Part shown: piece after piece, positions 2,037 through 14,516 of the stretch
How the letters are laid out: each line of letters starts with the position of its first letter
Position numbering within the stretch: the stretch's first letter is position 1
From: a virus
Reading direction: 5' to 3' (one strand)
Length of the DNA: 28,161 nucleotides
Virus record (IMG/VR): IMGVR_UViG_3300027963_000265
Location: 1 to 28,161 of that record
Made by a program: the position numbers and the translations under genes
Notes under the pieces: generated by a model
Told to the model about the DNA's origin: nothing
What the model saw: the letters and a program-made list of their open reading frames with translations, nothing else
Database searches by the model: none

Positions 2037-2046
2037 TGCGGCATGA
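2008..2046 (+). CDS. Possible 12-residue leader peptide
   Basis: An ATG at 2008 opens a frame reading MTKRAERATVAA, whose TGA (2044-2046) overlaps the portal ATG (2043) as ATGA, the junction style used all over this genome. Its first four codons copy those of the first gene. It would be translated only from read-through transcripts, because the local promoter starts downstream of it. It could couple terminase-to-portal translation, or it could be a by-product of the duplicated DNA element. No clear ribosome binding site precedes it. Confidence 0.2.
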   Translation: MTKRAERATVAA

Positions 2047-3461
2047 GCACCGAGTACGGCGATCCTACCATCGTCCCGACGCCCTCCGACATGGAGACTC
2101 AACGCCGCTGGGCTCACTCCCGGCTGGTCCGTCGCATGCTCGACGGCGCTTGGCAACTGGACCTTGAGCAGCGGATCGCCGAGGAGGTCGGCCGGGAGCG
2201 GTCGAGTGCGTGGGGGATCGCCAAGACAACCTGCATGCCGCTCGCCTCGATCTGCCGGGAGACGGCCGCGCTCTACATCACCGAGCCCGAGGTCTACTCG
2301 CAGGACGCCCCGATCTACGGCGTGCTCGACACCGCGATCCGGGCGTCGGGTCTGTGGGCGAGGATGCCCCGGTATCAAGCGATGGTGATCGGGCTCCGCG
2401 AGTGCGCGATGCGGATCAGCGTCAGCCCGTCCGGCGTGGCCCAGTACCGCCCGGTGTTCCCCGACCTTTGCACCGCCGAGTCAGACCCCGACGCGCCCGA
2501 CGTGCCGACCTCGATCGAGGAGTTGCGCTGGCGTTCGGGGGTCGGCTGGTGCTGGGACTGCCTCGACGTGAGCGACCCGAAGGCGCCCGAGTACCGGATC
2601 GAGACGTTCAGCCGGGACGAGGACGTGACGGCCGCGGTGCTCGGGCAGTCCTACAGCGGGGACGCCTACCCCTACCGCCGGGCTGATGGCACGCCCATCC
2701 TACCCTACGTGCTGCACCATGCCGAGTCCTTGGGCGACCGGCTCTGGAACTGGCGCGGCAACTGGGAGACGGTGCAGGCGTGCCTCGACCTCGGCGTCAA
2801 CTTCACATTCTTGGGCCACGTCTTGCGCGATGCCAGCTTCCCCCAGCGGTATACCCTTGACTGCGGATTCGTCGGCGCTGGCACGATCGAGAGCCCCGAC
2901 GGCACGTCCCGCATGGAGGTGATCGCCGATCCGGCCGTCATCATGCGAGCCGAGTCGACGCAAGAGGGCCGACAGCCGATCATCTCGCAGTTCCAGCCGG
3001 GCGCGGACCCGGCGATGTTGGAGGGCGTGATCTCGGCCCTCGCCAACCGGATCGCCATCGACGCCGGCCTACCCCCGGCCGACATTCAGCGCATGGGCGG
3101 CACCGCTAAGAGCGGCTACGCGATCGCGCTGTCGAACGAGGGCAAGCGGACTGCGGCCAAGCGGTACGCCCCGATCTTCCGGCCGGTGGACGAGCGCATG
3201 ATCGAGACGACGGCGATCATTCTGAACCGGGCAACCGGGAGCAACCTCCCCGAGTTCGGGTACCAGGTCCGCTACCGTGACATGCCGCTGTCTCCCGAGG
3301 AGTTGGCCGCCCGCCGGGCGAACGTGATCGAGATACGGAACGCCGGCTTGATCTCGCGCGTCAAGGCCTACCAGGAGCTGAACCCCGGCATCACCGAGGC
3401 GACCGCCCGTCAAGAGCTCGCGCGCATCGACGCCGAGCGCACCGCCCTCTCCACCCTCTGA
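2043..3461 (+). CDS. Portal protein
   Basis: This 472-residue protein is expected to form the dodecameric ring at one capsid vertex through which DNA enters and to which the tail attaches. The call rests on its place right after the large terminase, its usual length, and its C-terminal half. That half has a segment around residues 352-372 (GGTAKSGYAIALSNEGKR) typical of SPP1/HK97-type portals, followed by a helical stem and a late LSPEELAARRANVIEIRNAG region. The N-terminal part has conserved-looking tryptophans and acidic surface. No head morphogenesis (MuF) domain is fused. It starts at ATG 2043, beneath a promoter that probably gives a leaderless mRNA. The next gene begins 12 bases after its stop. 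Confidence 0.85.
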   Translation: MSTEYGDPTIVPTPSDMETQRRWAHSRLVRRMLDGAWQLDLEQRIAEEVGRERSSAWGIAKTTCMPLASICRETAALYITEPEVYSQDAPIYGVLDTAIRASGLWARMPRYQAMVIGLRECAMRISVSPSGVAQYRPVFPDLCTAESDPDAPDVPTSIEELRWRSGVGWCWDCLDVSDPKAPEYRIETFSRDEDVTAAVLGQSYSGDAYPYRRADGTPILPYVLHHAESLGDRLWNWRGNWETVQACLDLGVNFTFLGHVLRDASFPQRYTLDCGFVGAGTIESPDGTSRMEVIADPAVIMRAESTQEGRQPIISQFQPGADPAMLEGVISALANRIAIDAGLPPADIQRMGGTAKSGYAIALSNEGKRTAAKRYAPIFRPVDERMIETTAIILNRATGSNLPEFGYQVRYRDMPLSPEELAARRANVIEIRNAGLISRVKAYQELNPGITEATARQELARIDAERTALSTL

Positions 3462-3473
3462 CCCGAGCGACCC

Positions 3474-4091
3474 GTGAGCGACACCACGACCGACGACAGC
3501 ACGAACGAGATCCCCGACGACGCGACCCCGCGCGCCAAGGAGCGGATCATCGCCCTTGCCGCAGAGCGCACAGCCCTGCGCCAACAGCTCGACGCGGTCG
3601 GGCCGAAGCTGGCCGAGGTAACGACGCTCCAGGCGCAGCTTTCCGCCGCGACCGAGACCCACCTCAAGGCGGCGGCCGAGTGGGCGGCGAAGGAGACGGC
3701 GTGGCAGACTGACCGCGCGCTGCTGGCTGCTGGGATCACAGACCCCGAAGCGGCCGACATTATCGCGCACGCCTACGGCCGGGTGACGCCAGCCGAGGGC
3801 GCCGACAAGCCGAGCCTTGCGACGTGGCTACAGGACCGTGCCGCGCTGCCGAAGGGTGTGCAGGCGTACCTCCCGCCGGCTGCGACGACGACGCCGACAC
3901 CGACCGCGACGACCACCAAGACCGAGCCGGCCAAGGTCGCGCCACCGAACGCGAACGCGGGCGCCGGGTCGAGCGCCCCGCTGAACGGCCCTCTGTCGGC
4001 TGCGGAGATCACCGAGATGATGCGGACGCCAGAGGGGATCGAACGCTACAAAAAGGTCCGCGCTGCTCACCTGTCCGGGCTGCGGGCTTGA
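3474..4091 (+). CDS. Scaffold-like capsid assembly protein
   Basis: This 205-residue acidic protein lies between portal and major capsid, the usual site of the scaffold that shapes the prohead and is then removed. Residues 20-85 form a predicted coiled coil rich in Ala, Glu, Lys and Gln. A compact segment near 80-135 (LLAAGITDPEAADIIAHAYG) is followed by a Thr/Pro/Ala linker (about 140-170). The short helical C-terminus (about 175-205) is a plausible capsid-binding tail. The start is GTG at 3474. No serine protease motif is visible, and no separate protease gene lies nearby, so the scaffold may exit intact. The last codon and stop overlap the -35 box of the capsid promoter. Confidence 0.7.
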   Translation: MSDTTTDDSTNEIPDDATPRAKERIIALAAERTALRQQLDAVGPKLAEVTTLQAQLSAATETHLKAAAEWAAKETAWQTDRALLAAGITDPEAADIIAHAYGRVTPAEGADKPSLATWLQDRAALPKGVQAYLPPAATTTPTPTATTTKTEPAKVAPPNANAGAGSSAPLNGPLSAAEITEMMRTPEGIERYKKVRAAHLSGLRA

Positions 4092-4116
4092 CACACCGGC
4101 CGTAGCCCTCTACATT
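4088..4116 (+). promoter_or_regulatory. Strong sigma70-like promoter for the capsid gene
   Basis: A perfect -35 TTGACA (4088-4093), a 17-base spacer and -10 TACATT (4111-4116) form the best match to a housekeeping promoter in the window. The -35 overlaps the stop codon of the scaffold gene (TGA 4089-4091). Transcription would begin near 4123 and give a leader of about 88 bases before the ATG at 4211, containing the nested hairpin at 4146-4200. This would allow capsid protein to be made in excess over portal and scaffold. Confidence 0.75.
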
Positions 4117-4145
4117 CTCGGTATCAGCGTTCGGGTCGAGTCCCG

Positions 4146-4200
4146 TAAAAAGCGAAACACGCGAAAGACCAGATCCTCTTTCGCTCACCCTTCGCTTTAC
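4146..4200 (+). promoter_or_regulatory. Nested double hairpin in the capsid mRNA leader
   Basis: An inner 8-bp stem pairs GCGAAAGA (4161-4168) with TCTTTCGC (4177-4184) around an 8-base loop. An outer 8-bp stem pairs AAAGCGAA (4149-4156) with TTCGCTTT (4191-4198), leaving 4-base and 6-base sides between the stems. The outer arm can extend to GTAAA/TTTAC with a small bulge. The structure ends two bases before AGGTG (4201-4205), the likely ribosome binding site. No U-tract follows, so it is not a standard terminator. A 5' stabiliser, an RNase III site or a translational switch all fit. Confidence 0.75.
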
Positions 4201-4210
4201 AGGTGCCACA

Positions 4211-5131
4211 ATGGCCGACGCTCCGATCACCTACGCCTCGCTTTCCGACCTCACGGTCGCCTCCACCCTCGCCGCGGAGCTCCAACTCAAGCTCGGCGAC
4301 CGCGCCAGCCTGATGGGCCATCCTGCGATCGCCTACGTTGGCGACGTGCGAGGCAGCGGGTCCACCGTCAAGAAGGTGGGCATCATCGGTGCCGGCCTCG
4401 ACGCGATGGCCGCCGTGGCTGACGGGGTCTCGGTCGAGTCCGTGGCGCTCACCAACGCCAACGTCTCGATCACGGTCGCTCGGCAGGCGCTCTACCGCGG
4501 CCCGACCGACCTCGCCGCGACGGTGTGGAGCAACGTGCAGGAGCTCGTCTCCTACCTGACCGACGACATGGTGGGCGCCGTCCGGATCCGCGCGATGGCG
4601 ATGATCGCGACCTCCGGCTCGACGTTTTCCAACACGGTCGGCACCTCGGGTACGGCGTTCACCGTCACCAACCTGTTCAGCGCGATCGCCCAGCTCGAGA
4701 GCGTGTCGGCCCCCGGCCCGTTCCTTGCGGTGATCTCGCCCAAGCAGCTGTCGGACTTCCAGAGCTCGCTGCGGGCCGAGACCGGCGCGCTCCAGTGGAT
4801 CGCGGCGACCCCCGAGATGATGGCGATCAAGGGCCAGGGCTACGCGGGGTCGTTCCTTGGGATCGACTTCTTCGTGACCAGCCGGGTCGTCACCAGCGGC
4901 GGCGACAAGCTCGGGTTCTTGATCAGCTACGGCGCGATCGGGTACGCGGACGGCACGCCGGCCCCGATCATGGGCGCGGGCGGGCTGGTCATGCCGGCCG
5001 GGTCGAAGATGGTGGTCGAGCTCGGACGCACCCCCGAGGGCGCGATCACCAAAGTGATCGGCAACTGGTACGCCGGCTTCGCCGAACTCCAGGACTCGAT
5101 GGGCGTCCAGATCACGACCCGCGCCTCCTGA
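4211..5131 (+). CDS. Major capsid protein
   Basis: This 306-residue protein is predicted to form the icosahedral shell. Evidence is its place after portal and scaffold, the length of an HK97-fold capsid protein, its own strong promoter, and its composition. It has a short N-terminal arm, then Ala/Gly/Val-rich strands, then a spine-helix-like stretch near residues 100-135 (TDLAATVWSNVQELVSYLTD). The C-terminal part carries alternating strands (KLGFLISYGAIGYADG, about 232-247; KMVVELGRTPEGAITKVIG, about 265-283). No long N-terminal delta domain is seen, which fits a separate scaffold. The ATG at 4211 follows a modest AGGTG site placed directly after the leader hairpin. A 10-bp hairpin follows the stop. 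Confidence 0.82.
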   Translation: MADAPITYASLSDLTVASTLAAELQLKLGDRASLMGHPAIAYVGDVRGSGSTVKKVGIIGAGLDAMAAVADGVSVESVALTNANVSITVARQALYRGPTDLAATVWSNVQELVSYLTDDMVGAVRIRAMAMIATSGSTFSNTVGTSGTAFTVTNLFSAIAQLESVSAPGPFLAVISPKQLSDFQSSLRAETGALQWIAATPEMMAIKGQGYAGSFLGIDFFVTSRVVTSGGDKLGFLISYGAIGYADGTPAPIMGAGGLVMPAGSKMVVELGRTPEGAITKVIGNWYAGFAELQDSMGVQITTRAS

Positions 5132-8778: not shown

Positions 8779-9392
8779 GCGCGATCCGCTACCGTGACGG
8801 CGGGGCGTCGGTCGAGTTGACCGGTGACCTCGCCGCGTGGGCCGAGGCGGCGATCCAGAAGGCTGCGGGCGAGGCGATCAGCATCGTCCGTGCCGAACTG
8901 GAGACGGTCGCACGGCAGGCCGAGGCGGGCTGGTACAGCTCGGCGGGTGTCGAGCGCCGTACCGGGCAGTCGGGTCAGATGGCGGTGACGACGACGATCG
9001 ACGCCGCCCGGGGTGTGATCCGGGTGACGGTCGGATCGAGCGACACGAGGCGGGTCGGAAAAAAGAACCTCGCGCCCGCCGCCTACGTCCACCGAGCCGG
9101 GCCGAACTCGGTCGCGCTCCGGGTCGTGAGCGAGTCCGAGTACTACGCGGCCCCGAAGTCTACGCGGTACTGCCGCGCCAAGCGGGACGGGAAGTTTTGG
9201 AAGGTGCCGAGCCCCGAGATCAATGAGGGCGACTACGTGATCAAGGTCCAGAATCCCCGGGCCAGCGACGGAAAGAAGCTGTCTCCGATCTTCGTGTTCG
9301 CGCCGGGTAAGCGGGTGATCACGGCGGCCCTCCCCAAGATCGGCGCCGCGATGGCCAAGACCGCAACCGCTATCGAGGTGCCCCGTGCCTGA
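8775..9392 (+). CDS. Unrecognised tail protein before the tape measure
   Basis: This 205-residue protein starts at ATG 8775, overlapping the chaperone stop (ATGA). It starts inside the tail block and overlaps the tape measure start, so it is almost surely a tail component or assembly factor. Residues 15-55 are helical (AAIQKAAGEAISIVRAELET). The middle is basic and strand-rich, with repeated Arg/Lys (RRVGKKNLAPAAYVHRAG, about 95-112). The C-terminus is a helix (ALPKIGAAMAKTATAIEV). A HK97 gp10-like tail-component fold is possible, though those usually lie before the tube gene. No catalytic motif is seen. Confidence 0.6.
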   Translation: MSAIRYRDGGASVELTGDLAAWAEAAIQKAAGEAISIVRAELETVARQAEAGWYSSAGVERRTGQSGQMAVTTTIDAARGVIRVTVGSSDTRRVGKKNLAPAAYVHRAGPNSVALRVVSESEYYAAPKSTRYCRAKRDGKFWKVPSPEINEGDYVIKVQNPRASDGKKLSPIFVFAPGKRVITAALPKIGAAMAKTATAIEVPRA

Positions 9393-11244
9393 CATTTCGC
9401 TAAACGTCGATCTCAAGGTACAGCAAGCCCTATCCGAGCTCAAGCGCCTGTCCCCGGGCGCGGACAAGGAGGCCAAGGCCATCTCGGCATCTCTCGGCAA
9501 GGCTCTGCGGGATGCCGAGAAGGAGGCCAAGAAGCTGGGCGACGAGATGGGCAAGGCCGGAAAGGCCGGAGGTAACGGGCTGGAGCGCGCGGCAGAAGCG
9601 TCGGCCAACCTCGGCACGGGCGGGTCAAAGGCGCTCAAGGCGTTGGGGCCGCTTGGGGGGGTGCTAAGCCGGATCAGCCCGGAAGCCGGGGCGGCGGCAA
9701 GTTCGATCGCTGGGCTCACCTCGGCGTTTGAGGGTTTCGGGATCGAGGGCGGCATGCTGACCTCGGCTGTCGGTGCATCCCTTCCGGTACTCGCGGCGGG
9801 GGCCATCGCGATGGGCTCCCTCGTCGGGGTCATGGACGACTACACGGCGGCGAGCAAGGCGGCGAGCGCGGCCCACTCGGCGTTTGCCGCGGCGCTCGCC
9901 CCGATGGACGACGCGATCGACGCCGCCCGGAAAGAACAGGAGCGGCTGAACGCGGCACTCGATTCCGGGTCGGCGAAGAAGTACATCCAGATTTCCGACC
10001 TGTCGGCCATCGCAGACGAGAAGGAAGCCGAGGCGACCAAGGGTCTGCGCGAGGAGAAGGATCGGCTGATGCAGACCCTTGCGGCGTCCGCGAACATGGA
10101 CAACTTTGAGGGCCAACTTGCGCAGAACCGGATCGGGCAGATCGACAAGGAGATCGGGGCGGTCCACCAGAAGGCGAACGAACTGGCCCGGCTCTCGGTC
10201 GAGAACTACACGCTCCGGGGTGCCATCGACGGAGCGAGCGATTCCGAGAAGGGCCAAGCTGACGCATCCAAGGCCTTGGCGGCAGCGGCCAAGGCCGCCA
10301 AGGCCGACCTGTCCGCGCTGAACGCCGAGATGGAGCGGGCCGAACGCGCGGCCGAGGCGAACGTAAAGGGCTACAACTCGGCGATCAGCGCGTTGCAGGG
10401 CATGGAGGACCAGAGCAAGCACAGCCTCGCCGGGGAGATGGACCGGATCGACCTCGACCGGCAGGCGGCGCTGGCCAAGTCGCAGGCGCTGGCGGACGAG
10501 GCGAGCACCTACGCCTCGACGGTATCGGCGCGCGAGACGATCGACGCGCAGCACCGGGCGACGGATGTTGCCGCGGAGGCCGAGTACCAGGCGGCGAAGA
10601 GCGCCCTACAGGAGCGCGCGGCATCGGAGCGAGACGCCCTCGACCAGCAGGCGATGGCCGACCGGCTACAGCAGCAGCAGGCGATCGGGGGCGCGTTCAT
10701 CTCGCTCGGGGACTCGATCGTGGCTGCGACAAGCAAGCAGCACGACACGACGACGCGCGAGGGCCGGCGTGCTGCCCTTGCCCAGTTCTCGGTGCAGAAG
10801 GGCGTCATGCTCGCACAGGCCACGATCGCGGGTGCGCTGGCGATTAACGAGGCGCTCGCCAGCCCGGCTGGTCCGCCGGCTAGCTACATCATGGCGGCGG
10901 CAACCGGCGCAGCGTCGGCGGTCCAGATCGGGACCATCGCCGCGACCCAGCCGAGCTTTCACCAAGGGTACGCGCCGGACGAGCAGTCAGCGCGGGTGCT
11001 CAAGCGAGAGTCGGTGCTGACGACGACGGCGACGGCCGCGGTAGGCGTGGGCAAGGTGCGCGAGTTGAACGCGGGCATGACCGGAGGCGGCGGCTACCAG
11101 GGCCCCGCGCCGGTCATCCTCGGCCACCGGGTCGTCGACGAGGCCATCAAGCGGGAGTTGCGGTCGAGCGGCGCGCTGTCGTCGGCCCTGTCGAGCGGCC
11201 GGGTAGTCGGTCACCGAACGAACCGCCGCGGTACCACCGGTTAG
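9385..11244 (+). CDS. Tape measure protein
   Basis: This 619-residue protein sets tail length and probably helps DNA cross the cell envelope. It starts with GTG at 9385, eight bases inside the previous gene. Features match the family. The N-terminal helical region is Ala/Lys-rich. A hydrophobic Gly/Ala segment lies at about 103-152 (VLAAGAIAMGSLVGVM). Long coiled coils run across about 175-215 and 290-425, and a second hydrophobic stretch lies near 470-520. The order after the chaperone pair is diagnostic. At roughly 1.5 angstroms per residue the tail would be near 90 nm. No lysozyme or peptidase domain is fused. Confidence 0.88.
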   Translation: MPDISLNVDLKVQQALSELKRLSPGADKEAKAISASLGKALRDAEKEAKKLGDEMGKAGKAGGNGLERAAEASANLGTGGSKALKALGPLGGVLSRISPEAGAAASSIAGLTSAFEGFGIEGGMLTSAVGASLPVLAAGAIAMGSLVGVMDDYTAASKAASAAHSAFAAALAPMDDAIDAARKEQERLNAALDSGSAKKYIQISDLSAIADEKEAEATKGLREEKDRLMQTLAASANMDNFEGQLAQNRIGQIDKEIGAVHQKANELARLSVENYTLRGAIDGASDSEKGQADASKALAAAAKAAKADLSALNAEMERAERAAEANVKGYNSAISALQGMEDQSKHSLAGEMDRIDLDRQAALAKSQALADEASTYASTVSARETIDAQHRATDVAAEAEYQAAKSALQERAASERDALDQQAMADRLQQQQAIGGAFISLGDSIVAATSKQHDTTTREGRRAALAQFSVQKGVMLAQATIAGALAINEALASPAGPPASYIMAAATGAASAVQIGTIAATQPSFHQGYAPDEQSARVLKRESVLTTTATAAVGVGKVRELNAGMTGGGGYQGPAPVILGHRVVDEAIKRELRSSGALSSALSSGRVVGHRTNRRGTTG

Positions 11245-11252
11245 GGGGCAAC

Positions 11253-14200
11253 ATGGCCGATCTCACTCCATCCACGATCCGAGCCCTGCTCACCCTCGAT
11301 ACCCGGTTCGGCTCGGCATCCCTCGTCGCGAGCGGCACGGACGGGGCCGACTACACGCAGGCCGAGCGGCTGATCGGGGCGGTGACTCCGGGCAGCACGA
11401 CGACGCCCGCGATCATCCTGTCCGGCACCCCGACCGGCGATCCGTCGTTCGCGCTTGAGTGCGTGCGCGGCGGGAACCCGGGCGCGTCGGTGGACTTGCT
11501 CGCGGACACGCCGCCCGGGATCGCAGTCGGCCCCGGGGTGGTCTGGACGCGCGACGGGGACGCGCTGTACCGCGGCTGGGATCCACCGACCGCCATCAGC
11601 GAGTTCGAGTTCATCGACCGCTCGACCACGGCCAACGAATGGCTCTACCCGCACGTCGTCTCCCGGGCTGATGGGTCTGCCTACCTGGTCGTCCAGCACT
11701 CCGAGCGGTACGTGGCGACCTACACCCGGACCAACGGCGGGACGTGGACGGCGTCGGGGGTGGTGTACGATGCCGGGAGCGCCTACTACGCCAGCCCGAT
11801 CCGCGCGTGTCCCTGCCTCCTCAACCTGCCAGGAGACCGCCTCCTGTGCGTGTGGCTCGGGGCGCTCGACGGGTTCCTGTCCTCGATCAGCAGCGACAAC
11901 GGCGCGACGTGGAGCACGCCGGCCGTGTGCGACTTTGAGATCCAGACGTGGGTGCTCGTCTACTCGCTTATGAAGGTCCGCGCCGCCTACTCCAACGGCC
12001 AGATCCTGCTACTCGCATACCTGACCGGCGGCGGCATCGACACCGTGATCCAGCTTGCCAGCGTTGACAACGGCGCATCGTTCGCTCTGGTCTCGACGGT
12101 AGTAGACCGGGACGCCGGATACGCCGAGGTCGTCGCAGCCCCGGGCGGCTCCGGGTTCGTTGTCGCGACACTGGAGACCGCCCGAGACACCGCCGGCCCA
12201 TCGACGGTGCCGCCCTACGTCCGCCGGATCGGGTCCGCGTTCGATTTCGTTATGTACACGGAACCGACCCTCGCGCAAGCCGCCTCCGACACGGCGCGGT
12301 GGGGCACGCGCGCTGGCGGGTCGGGATCGGTGCTGACTGCCGGCGAGCTCGCGCTGACTGTGGACCACGCCGGTACGCTCTGGCTGTTCGGCCTCAACTT
12401 TGCGAGCACGCGCCAAGGACTCGTCAGCCGCAGCGACGACGGCGGGGCAACGTGGGCGCTCCAGTCGCGCCAGTGGTACGACTGCGCCGACGCTACTCGC
12501 GGACCCCGGCAAATGGCCGCAGCGTGGCAAGGCGCGCGCGTAATCCTCGCGCACACGCTCAACGCCTCGACGGCTACAGCATCGCTGGCGGTGGCGTACC
12601 TCGGCGGCGATACGACGGTGTGCCGGCCGCAGCTTTACGGCGCGCTGTCCGTCCCCAATTACGTGGGCGACTACACCGTGGCGTGGCTCCCCTACGCGCT
12701 CCCCGAGGCCACGGGCGCGACGTGGACATATGCGGCTGTCGGTGCCCCCACGATCACGCTCACAGGCAACGGCGCGCGGGTCCAACACGGCGGCGTGCTC
12801 GACTCGGCAACGTGGACGGCTACCCCGACCACCAGCAACGCGAACGGGCTGCATCTCCTCGCCGACCTAAAGGCGGCGGTCGGAAACGCCTACGTGCAGG
12901 CACGGATCGGAGCGGCTGGCCCATCGTCCTACGAGGTGCGGGTGCTCGTCACGCCTACCTCGATCGTGTTCCGCGACGTGACGAGCGGGGTAGACCTCGC
13001 GACGGTCTCGACTACGGCCGGGGCGACGGGCGTGCAGGTCATGCTCGGCATCGGGGACACGGTCGGCGGCGCCCTGTCCGGCGACTGCCAAGCCTGGTAC
13101 CGTCCTTGGGGCAGCAAGGCGGATCGGGAGTTCATTCGGATCCACCAAGCGACCACTCTCACCCAAGGCGCGAGCACGACCGACCGGATCCAGTTCGGGA
13201 CGATCGCCGGCAGCGCGACCACCGACGCGAACGTGCGTTTGGTCCAGTACGCCGAGGGCTCCGACTGCGGCGTCAACATATACCTCTCGACCTACACGTC
13301 AAAGGCGCGGCTGCTCGGCGTGCCCGTGTCGCCCTACCCGACGCCGCTGGCAGAAACGGGCGTGTCGGTGTCGGGTCTCGCTGGTCCTCTGGCTACCGGT
13401 CAGACGTGGACGGCCCCGGTAGAGCACGGCTACGCGGTCTCGCTGACCGACCCCGCCGTATCCGCGAGCCCCCGCCGGACGTGGCGCAGCACGGCGGACA
13501 CGGTGAGCCAGCGGATCGTGTGGACGTTTGACGAGGCGACCACGATGCAGAGCCCCCTCGCGGGCGTCTACATCGACGGGTGCAACTTTCAGCAGGCAAC
13601 GCTCGCCGGCTGGAACGGCGCGGCATGGGTGACGATCGCGACCATCGATCTGCGACTCGGCGCGACGGCCGGGATCAAGTACACGCGGCAGGGTGAGATC
13701 GTGTACTGCGGGACGGGCGGCGGCTCGGCGATCACGGACTACCTGGACCGCGGGGAGCTCGCCGGGTACACGATCAAGCTCGCCGCCGGCCAGTACCGGC
13801 GGATCAAGACAAACACGGGCGGCCGGTGGACGGGCGCGGCGGCGACGACTACCCGCCCAGTGGTGACGCTGGAGAGCTACACGCCCGGCGATGCGACCTC
13901 GGGCAGCGCGTCGGAGATCTGGACCCCGCGCGCCTGTGTCGTGTTCCGGGGTGCGACCACTGGCTATAGCCGGTACAGCCTGCACATTCCGTCGAGCCCA
14001 ACGGCTGACGGGTACTACACGATCGGCGCCATCGTGATCGGGCCGCTGGTCGTGCTCGGCGACCCCGACACCGAGCGGCAGTACAGCCGCGCGACGAACG
14101 TGCTGACGACGACGGCGCGCAACGGGACGCGCACCCAGCGCCGGCTCGGTCGGGCGGCGCGGGCGGTGCAGGTGTCGTGGACGGACGGGATCGACGGCAG

Positions 14201-14516
14201 CAACGTTCATGATGCGGTGCCCGACTACGTGCTCGACTACACGGGCGGCACTCCGATCAGCACCCCGGCGGCGCTGTCCGGCGACATCCTCGGCGTGGTC
14301 GCCGAGAATGACGTAACGCCTGTCGTCTACCTGCCAGCGGTGGCGGTCCCGGGCTCGGCGACTACCTCGCTGGTCGTGTCGGCTGACCTGATGCTGTACG
14401 GGGACATCGTCACCGACACGATCCAAACCGACGTGGTCTGCGGCGACGAGCACCAGGTGAGCGGCAAGGGCGAATACGTGCGGGTCGGCACGGTGCGGCT
14501 GGAGGAGGTGCTGTGA
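11253..14516 (+). CDS. Large tail protein with Asp-box beta-propeller
   Basis: This 1087-residue protein is the largest in the window and follows the tape measure directly. Four Asp-box-like motifs are visible at residues 159-165 (RTNGGTW), 213-220 (SSDNGATW), 270-277 (SVDNGASF) and 394-401 (SDDGGATW). Their spacing is that of sialidase-type beta-propellers. Residues 500-690 look like a lectin-like beta-sandwich. Around 730-850 a discoidin-like stretch appears (ESPL-type strand, then LAGWNGAAWVTIATIDLR). The C-terminus is beta-rich. It probably binds or cleaves surface glycans at the tail tip. Catalytic residues of true sialidases were not identified, so binding alone is possible. ATG 11253 follows AGGGGG. 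Confidence 0.72.
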   Translation: MADLTPSTIRALLTLDTRFGSASLVASGTDGADYTQAERLIGAVTPGSTTTPAIILSGTPTGDPSFALECVRGGNPGASVDLLADTPPGIAVGPGVVWTRDGDALYRGWDPPTAISEFEFIDRSTTANEWLYPHVVSRADGSAYLVVQHSERYVATYTRTNGGTWTASGVVYDAGSAYYASPIRACPCLLNLPGDRLLCVWLGALDGFLSSISSDNGATWSTPAVCDFEIQTWVLVYSLMKVRAAYSNGQILLLAYLTGGGIDTVIQLASVDNGASFALVSTVVDRDAGYAEVVAAPGGSGFVVATLETARDTAGPSTVPPYVRRIGSAFDFVMYTEPTLAQAASDTARWGTRAGGSGSVLTAGELALTVDHAGTLWLFGLNFASTRQGLVSRSDDGGATWALQSRQWYDCADATRGPRQMAAAWQGARVILAHTLNASTATASLAVAYLGGDTTVCRPQLYGALSVPNYVGDYTVAWLPYALPEATGATWTYAAVGAPTITLTGNGARVQHGGVLDSATWTATPTTSNANGLHLLADLKAAVGNAYVQARIGAAGPSSYEVRVLVTPTSIVFRDVTSGVDLATVSTTAGATGVQVMLGIGDTVGGALSGDCQAWYRPWGSKADREFIRIHQATTLTQGASTTDRIQFGTIAGSATTDANVRLVQYAEGSDCGVNIYLSTYTSKARLLGVPVSPYPTPLAETGVSVSGLAGPLATGQTWTAPVEHGYAVSLTDPAVSASPRRTWRSTADTVSQRIVWTFDEATTMQSPLAGVYIDGCNFQQATLAGWNGAAWVTIATIDLRLGATAGIKYTRQGEIVYCGTGGGSAITDYLDRGELAGYTIKLAAGQYRRIKTNTGGRWTGAAATTTRPVVTLESYTPGDATSGSASEIWTPRACVVFRGATTGYSRYSLHIPSSPTADGYYTIGAIVIGPLVVLGDPDTERQYSRATNVLTTTARNGTRTQRRLGRAARAVQVSWTDGIDGSNVHDAVPDYVLDYTGGTPISTPAALSGDILGVVAENDVTPVVYLPAVAVPGSATTSLVVSADLMLYGDIVTDTIQTDVVCGDEHQVSGKGEYVRVGTVRLEEVL

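Follow-up and report, generated by a model that had tools for sequence, protein, structure and literature searches.

In phage T4, the mRNA leader of gene 32 contains a pseudoknot upstream of the Shine-Dalgarno (SD) for which a role in translation control has been proposed, and gp32 represses translation of its own mRNA (PMC535899, PMC3014915). This leader is the nearest described phage precedent for the element analyzed here, by function only; it belongs to a different gene, has a different fold, and diverges even among T4 relatives, whereas the core of the head-gene element is nearly invariant across phage groups and genes. Among bacterial RNAs, the SAM-II and preQ1 types are small translational riboswitches that operate by SD sequestration. 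Like these, the head-gene element has a short aptamer-like core, a pseudoknot or outer helix (P1) at the ribosome site, variable platforms, and tandem copies, but it has no Rfam match, would act on structural genes of phages, and did not turn up in host genes. The T7 gene 10 leader is a stabilizing and enhancing structured leader of the major capsid gene in one phage group and, compared by description only, shares with the leader examined here both its structured nature and its location before the major capsid gene. The put RNAs of HK022 are also promoter-proximal folded phage RNAs and are located upstream of the terminators they suppress, whereas the head-gene element, although likewise promoter-proximal and folded, includes the SD in one of the lineages described below. 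A literature search of partial coverage (few subscription papers) found no capsid-leader RNA motif. As described below, the element is almost certainly a conserved, structured cis-regulatory RNA of phage head operons, and we assign a probability of roughly 0.5 to our main reading, namely that it is a new class of cis-regulatory RNA controlling the translation of virion structural genes via an aptamer-like core and lineage-specific masking of the SD.

The capsid leader in the window

The window is the entire 28,161-nt stretch of viral DNA that was analyzed (IMGVR_UViG_3300027963_000265). The original prediction for this locus was a nested hairpin of two perfect 8-bp stems, positioned under the strongest promoter of the window and ending two bases before the capsid SD. 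Both stems were confirmed by direct reading and by folding, as the leader (leader starts were set by rule) reaches -34.1 kcal/mol when folded from ~4123, compared with -23.5 +/- 3.1 kcal/mol for 200 dinucleotide shuffles (z -3.43), none of which was as stable. The promoter assignment and the spacing to the SD were likewise correct, while the proposed direct and inverse GCGAAA repeat is real except that its last copy reads TTCGC rather than TTTCGC. What did not survive was the nested hairpin as the functional unit, because its inner stem is clade-specific and its outer stem is one helix of a pseudoknot. The conserved object is instead a P1/P2/J core plus the pseudoknot, and it begins 5' of the two stems. 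The features of the locus are as follows:

3474-4091, + strand: scaffolding-protein-like ORF of 205 aa upstream of the leader, with a weak match to PF06810 (Phage_scaffold)
4088-4116, + strand: sigma70-type promoter TTGACA-17-TACATT, the best promoter-like site of the window (10/12)
4127-4130, + strand: 5' strand of P1, GCGU, paired with 4159-4162 and part of the covariance model match at 4127-4162
4132-4145, + strand: P2 hairpin CGGG-UCGAGU-CCCG, identified from alignments, with pair changes in relatives
4146-4158, + strand: conserved strand J, UAAAAAGCGAAAC, identified from alignments A5, A7, and A11 (canonical form U(N)AACAGCGnAR)
4149-4156, + strand: 5' strand of pseudoknot helix P3 (the earlier outer stem), AAAGCGAA, forming 8 bp with 4191-4198
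4159-4162, + strand: 3' strand of P1, ACGC, on the same basis as its 5' strand and sharing two bases with the inner stem
4161-4184, + strand: clade-specific hairpin (the earlier inner stem), 8 bp with a loop of 8
4191-4198, + strand: 3' strand of P3, TTCGCTTT, ending two bases before the SD
4201-4205, + strand: SD AGGTG, read from the sequence
4211-5131, + strand: major capsid protein (MCP) gene of the HK97 fold, starting with the ATG at 4211 and assigned by comparison of an AlphaFold model with PDB phage capsids and by tblastn

The whole RNA occupies ~4127-4205: the outer helix P1 encloses the hairpin P2 and the single strand J, and beyond its return arm a 3' segment folds back beside the SD to pair with J. 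As this 8-bp pairing crosses P1, the true topology is a pseudoknot. Inside P1, the core consensus is GGGU-N-GC-A-CCCGU-(N)-AACAGCG. The strands of the clade-specific hairpin (4161-4168, GCGAAAGA, with 4177-4184, TCTTTCGC) form 8 bp, of which 6 (4163-4168/4177-4182) remain when P1 forms; the hairpin is present with altered pairs in two relatives (L003 and L004) and missing from the other subfamilies.

The 205-aa ORF matches PF06810 with E 0.0014 (below the cut-off) and with E 4.7e-6 in a one-genome search, and its position fits isolates annotated with a scaffold-MCP order. The capsid protein alone has no Pfam or PHROG match. Its AlphaFold model, made from 23 relatives (pLDDT 71.5, pTM 0.71), matches PDB phage capsids with a best E of 5e-14, and tblastn ties the protein to the annotated MCP of phage DSL-LC06. 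Elsewhere in the window, weak portal (phrog_533, 2043-3461) and tape-measure (phrog_1506, 9385-11244) matches support the structural gene order, and a 1087-aa ORF (11253-14516), which matches a BNR repeat below threshold, probably encodes a tail fibre or receptor-binding protein.

Compensatory change in related capsid leaders

Relatives of the capsid protein were fetched from IMG/VR by protein only, with the leader ignored (16 close and ~80 more distant), and the core precedes the major capsid gene in ~120 IMG/VR contigs. Nearly all leaders share one layout, consisting of a P1 of 4-8 bp, a short P2, a J near GU(N)AACAGCGnAR, and the second arm of P1, while the promoter is found at the same place in nearly all relatives, with 5-27 nt between the -10 and the start of P1. 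Covariance model R1 matches the element at all tested capsid loci except L069 and L094, and in the window it matches 4127-4162 with E ~1e-9, the E-values being rough; since the model was built from picked sequences among these same capsid leaders, its matches to them arise by construction and are not independent. The sequence pattern p2 gave 80 matches in IMG/VR, 78 before an MCP gene and 2 cut off by contig ends, these counts being uncorrected for chance matches. Several other matches were discarded: most of the 37 matches to pattern p3 that have no capsid downstream look like chance in coding DNA, weak covariance model matches ~4 kb upstream in L194, L205, L213, L230, L243, and L256 fall within the stretch of the terminase gene that encodes Walker-A, and a weak second match in L003 also looks like chance.

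Three subfamilies of capsid leaders can be distinguished, having the P2 loop UCGAGY (the window type), the loop CAAG together with an extra 5' hairpin, or the loop UCGCA (the canonical form). The extra hairpin of the CAAG-loop subfamily (L056-L115) is strong, CGTGAGGC...GCCTCACG along with compensated variants, and is located at ~+1 of the transcript. A pairing of the P2 loop with J (CGC with GCG) was also considered, but was rejected as it shows no covariation. In one clade (L004-L013), TGACACG...CGTGTCA inverted repeats flank the promoter (e.g. L005, ~2865-2905) and likely serve as a repressor or activator operator; the window is without them.

The original prediction named covariation in homologous leaders as its check, and these leaders do carry a structured element in which compensatory changes are numerous. 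Across 43 distinct capsid-leader sequences, all five modelled P1 pairs vary on both sides, and the P1 covariation score is 0.386, compared with 0.141 +/- 0.018 for shuffled sequences and <=0.132 for slid partners. The three P2 pairs are G-C in 41, 38, and 41 of the 43 sequences, with compensated A-U or U-A pairs in seven cells. Because the alignments behind these pair counts were fitted to the model, a cleaner test was made with a pattern that omits P1 (GGGTNGCACCCGTN{0,1}AACAGC), which contains only P2 and J and leaves the flanks outside. Run over IMG/VR, it matched 77 contigs (a count uncorrected for chance matches), and the flanks of these loci pair with a mean P1 of 6.5 bp, compared with 4.3 bp for swapped flanks (maximum of 2000 permutations 4.9) and 3.8 bp for shuffled flanks. 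Examples of such flank pairs include ACAATC/GATTGT, ATAACTT/AAGTTAT, ATTGGT/ACCAAT, CATCG/CGATG, and TTGGG/CCCAA. P1 of the scaffold-type leaders described below behaves similarly (0.365 vs 0.132), and its frequent G-U pairs argue for RNA rather than DNA. The element accordingly combines compensatory structure beyond the controls with a fixed position in the 5' leader. Inverted repeats do lie near the promoter, and one clade of relatives carries the TGACACG/CGTGTCA repeats around it, as a DNA-level operator or a chance palindrome would have it; however, the arms vary in sequence between phages and yet still pair, G-U pairs occur, and the conserved strand is asymmetric, which makes this explanation negligible.

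Scaffold genes, additional copies, and distribution

The core also precedes a PF06810 scaffold gene in phages of the gut/rumen type, their host assignment resting upon gene content and one isolate. A further 62 loci were fetched, of which 16 lie before a capsid gene of the window family and 44 have the hairpin loop UAGCA. The UAGCA-loop element is followed in nearly all 44 by a gene for a ~190-226-aa protein with a recurring N-terminus; the three of these proteins that were tested match PF06810 Phage_scaffold, and Phage_cap_E capsid genes lie two genes further on. In these leaders, the sole SD (AAAGGA in 37/44) is formed by the end of J and the start of the P1 return arm (P1'), the ATG follows within a few bases, and by motif the SD lies inside the element in 41/44. 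The isolate carrying this form is Flavonifractor phage Chenonceau (ON453904.1, 26341-26374), in which the element contains the SD and directly precedes the annotated head scaffolding protein; a BLAST search with the Chenonceau leader among 50,697 phage records found only itself. Intrinsic-terminator-like hairpins with T-runs occur 15-60 nt upstream of the element in 25/44 scaffold-type leaders (L329, L341, L344, and others) and also in L139. Dulem virus 33 and similar relatives keep the P1-hairpin-SD layout with a different core. Scaffold leaders of the related gut phages L331, L334, and L336 have a P1-hairpin-SD-P1' layout whose core (CCCCGAAGAAACGGGG CCAAAGAAAAGGA) also differs and may represent a second type of operator.

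The element can occur more than once in a phage. One phage (L304) has a copy before a window-type capsid gene and another with the same P1 before a gene in the tail-fibre region, a second (L139) has a copy before a PF06810 scaffold gene (with GAG/CUC as P2) and another before a 724-aa ORF, and tandem copies precede a single capsid gene in L052, L136, and partly L174. Copies at several genes and in tandem point to a signal that acts in trans more than to a structure dedicated to a single protein. Tandem copies are also among the features that a simple 5' stabilizer or translation enhancer, i.e. a folded 5' end that blocks 5'-dependent decay of late mRNA or presents the SD without any trans ligand, would not need, and the same applies to the ~18 near-invariant, partly unpaired bases and to an SD within the fold. 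Moreover, half of the scaffold leaders have the element behind a terminator and not at a clear +1. Such a role is improbable, even though P1 of many leaders starts near the predicted +1, the second subfamily has its strong hairpin at the extreme 5' end, and the downstream genes are highly expressed. A put-like RNA for processive antitermination, loaded at the late promoter, would explain the promoter-proximal location ahead of long late operons, but the Firmicutes-type element abuts the start codon, contains the SD, and sits downstream of terminators, and so antitermination fits poorly and is very improbable.

Rfam 15 gave no relevant match at the gathering threshold for the window, L139, and 16 other loci covering all types, while a permissive scan of the window leader gave chance matches only; known Rfam families were rejected, including a sub-threshold antisense match to Guanidine-II. 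No copy was detected in 298 other Pseudomonadota genomes, E. coli, or host genes, and the only carrier in the prophage search was a Janthinobacterium MAG contig. Isolates with distant capsid relatives (DSL-LC06, HTVC112P, and HTVC026P) are without it. This near absence from cultured phages may explain why the element has been overlooked.

Access to the Shine-Dalgarno and the candidate ligand

Pairing between J and a segment adjoining or within the SD occurs in the window clade and also in several other lineages. Among 22 lineage representatives, the cognate pairing of J with the downstream segment (c') was superior to swapped (p 2e-5) and shuffled (p 0.002) partners, and the 3' strand of P3 varies together with J in relatives (AGCGAA/TTCGCT, CGAAGG/CCTTCG, and ACAG/CTGT). 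An H-type pseudoknot is accordingly indicated in part of the lineages, with P1 shown by covariation and the J-c' helix by the swap and shuffle tests. The large CAAG-loop subfamily is without the J-c' helix and has a CTCC...GGAG hairpin over the SD instead. In the AT-rich capsid leaders L134, L135, L145, and L158, no obvious SD masking was seen, and thus translation control is not visible everywhere.

Judged from sequence, a conserved core is joined to variable platforms, including the ribosome site, in three arrangements. A shared core with a varying read-out would be the usual anatomy of riboswitches and of some protein operators. The P1/P2/J core starts near the transcription start and precedes capsid, scaffold, and a few other structural genes, where it would serve as an aptamer-like site for a trans-acting ligand common to phages of different bacteria, with binding being read out at the ribosome site through lineage-specific platforms. 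In the Firmicutes-type phages, the SD AAAGGA lies within J/P1', so formation of P1 would hide it; in the window clade, J would pair with the segment directly beside the SD, and in the third group, the local CTCC...GGAG hairpin would cover it. Action at translation initiation via access to the SD is probable, and the idea that a structured leader sets capsid output survives its covariation check, even though the specific nested-hairpin picture was wrong.

As for the ligand, the core is invariant across unrelated downstream proteins, which argues less for autoregulation by a gene product than for a metabolite or conserved host factor, and we would give even odds to a binder of this kind. A phage protein is a rather unlikely binder, the best candidate being the scaffold. 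By that account, free scaffolding (or other head) protein would bind the core and keep translation of the head genes repressed until assembly has consumed it. A PF06810-type scaffold is indeed found in both phage groups, with strong matches downstream of the element in the Firmicutes type and L139 and weak matches upstream of the capsid gene in the window, L171 (2.6e-8), L122, L159, and L070, and a pseudoknot operator near the SD exists in T4 gene 32 (PMC535899). However, the core varies far less than the scaffold proteins, which share 25-38% identity, the T4 and RB69 operators diverge, the scaffolds of L079 and L095 have no PF06810 match, and some copies precede neither scaffold nor capsid (the 724-aa ORF of L139 and the fibre region of L304). 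Scaffold-like ORFs before the capsid gene begin with a CPHC or CPKC motif in L066, L070, L120, L132, L159, L171, and L177, a possible zinc site that could bind nucleic acid. We tentatively entertain the narrower proposal that the element is an undescribed riboswitch class, found almost only in uncultured phages, that controls the synthesis of virion proteins, capsid and scaffold among them, in response to a universal small molecule or ion.

If our main reading of a new translational cis-regulatory RNA class is true, the element would amount to an RNA checkpoint on virion assembly, widespread yet hardly seen in cultured phages. Reuse of one translational element at both capsid and scaffold genes, in phages that infect different bacteria, opens head-protein timing and stoichiometry to direct testing, and Flavonifractor phage Chenonceau, as an isolate carrier, makes such work possible at once. 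Should the binder be a metabolite, phages would read the state of the host before committing to particle production.
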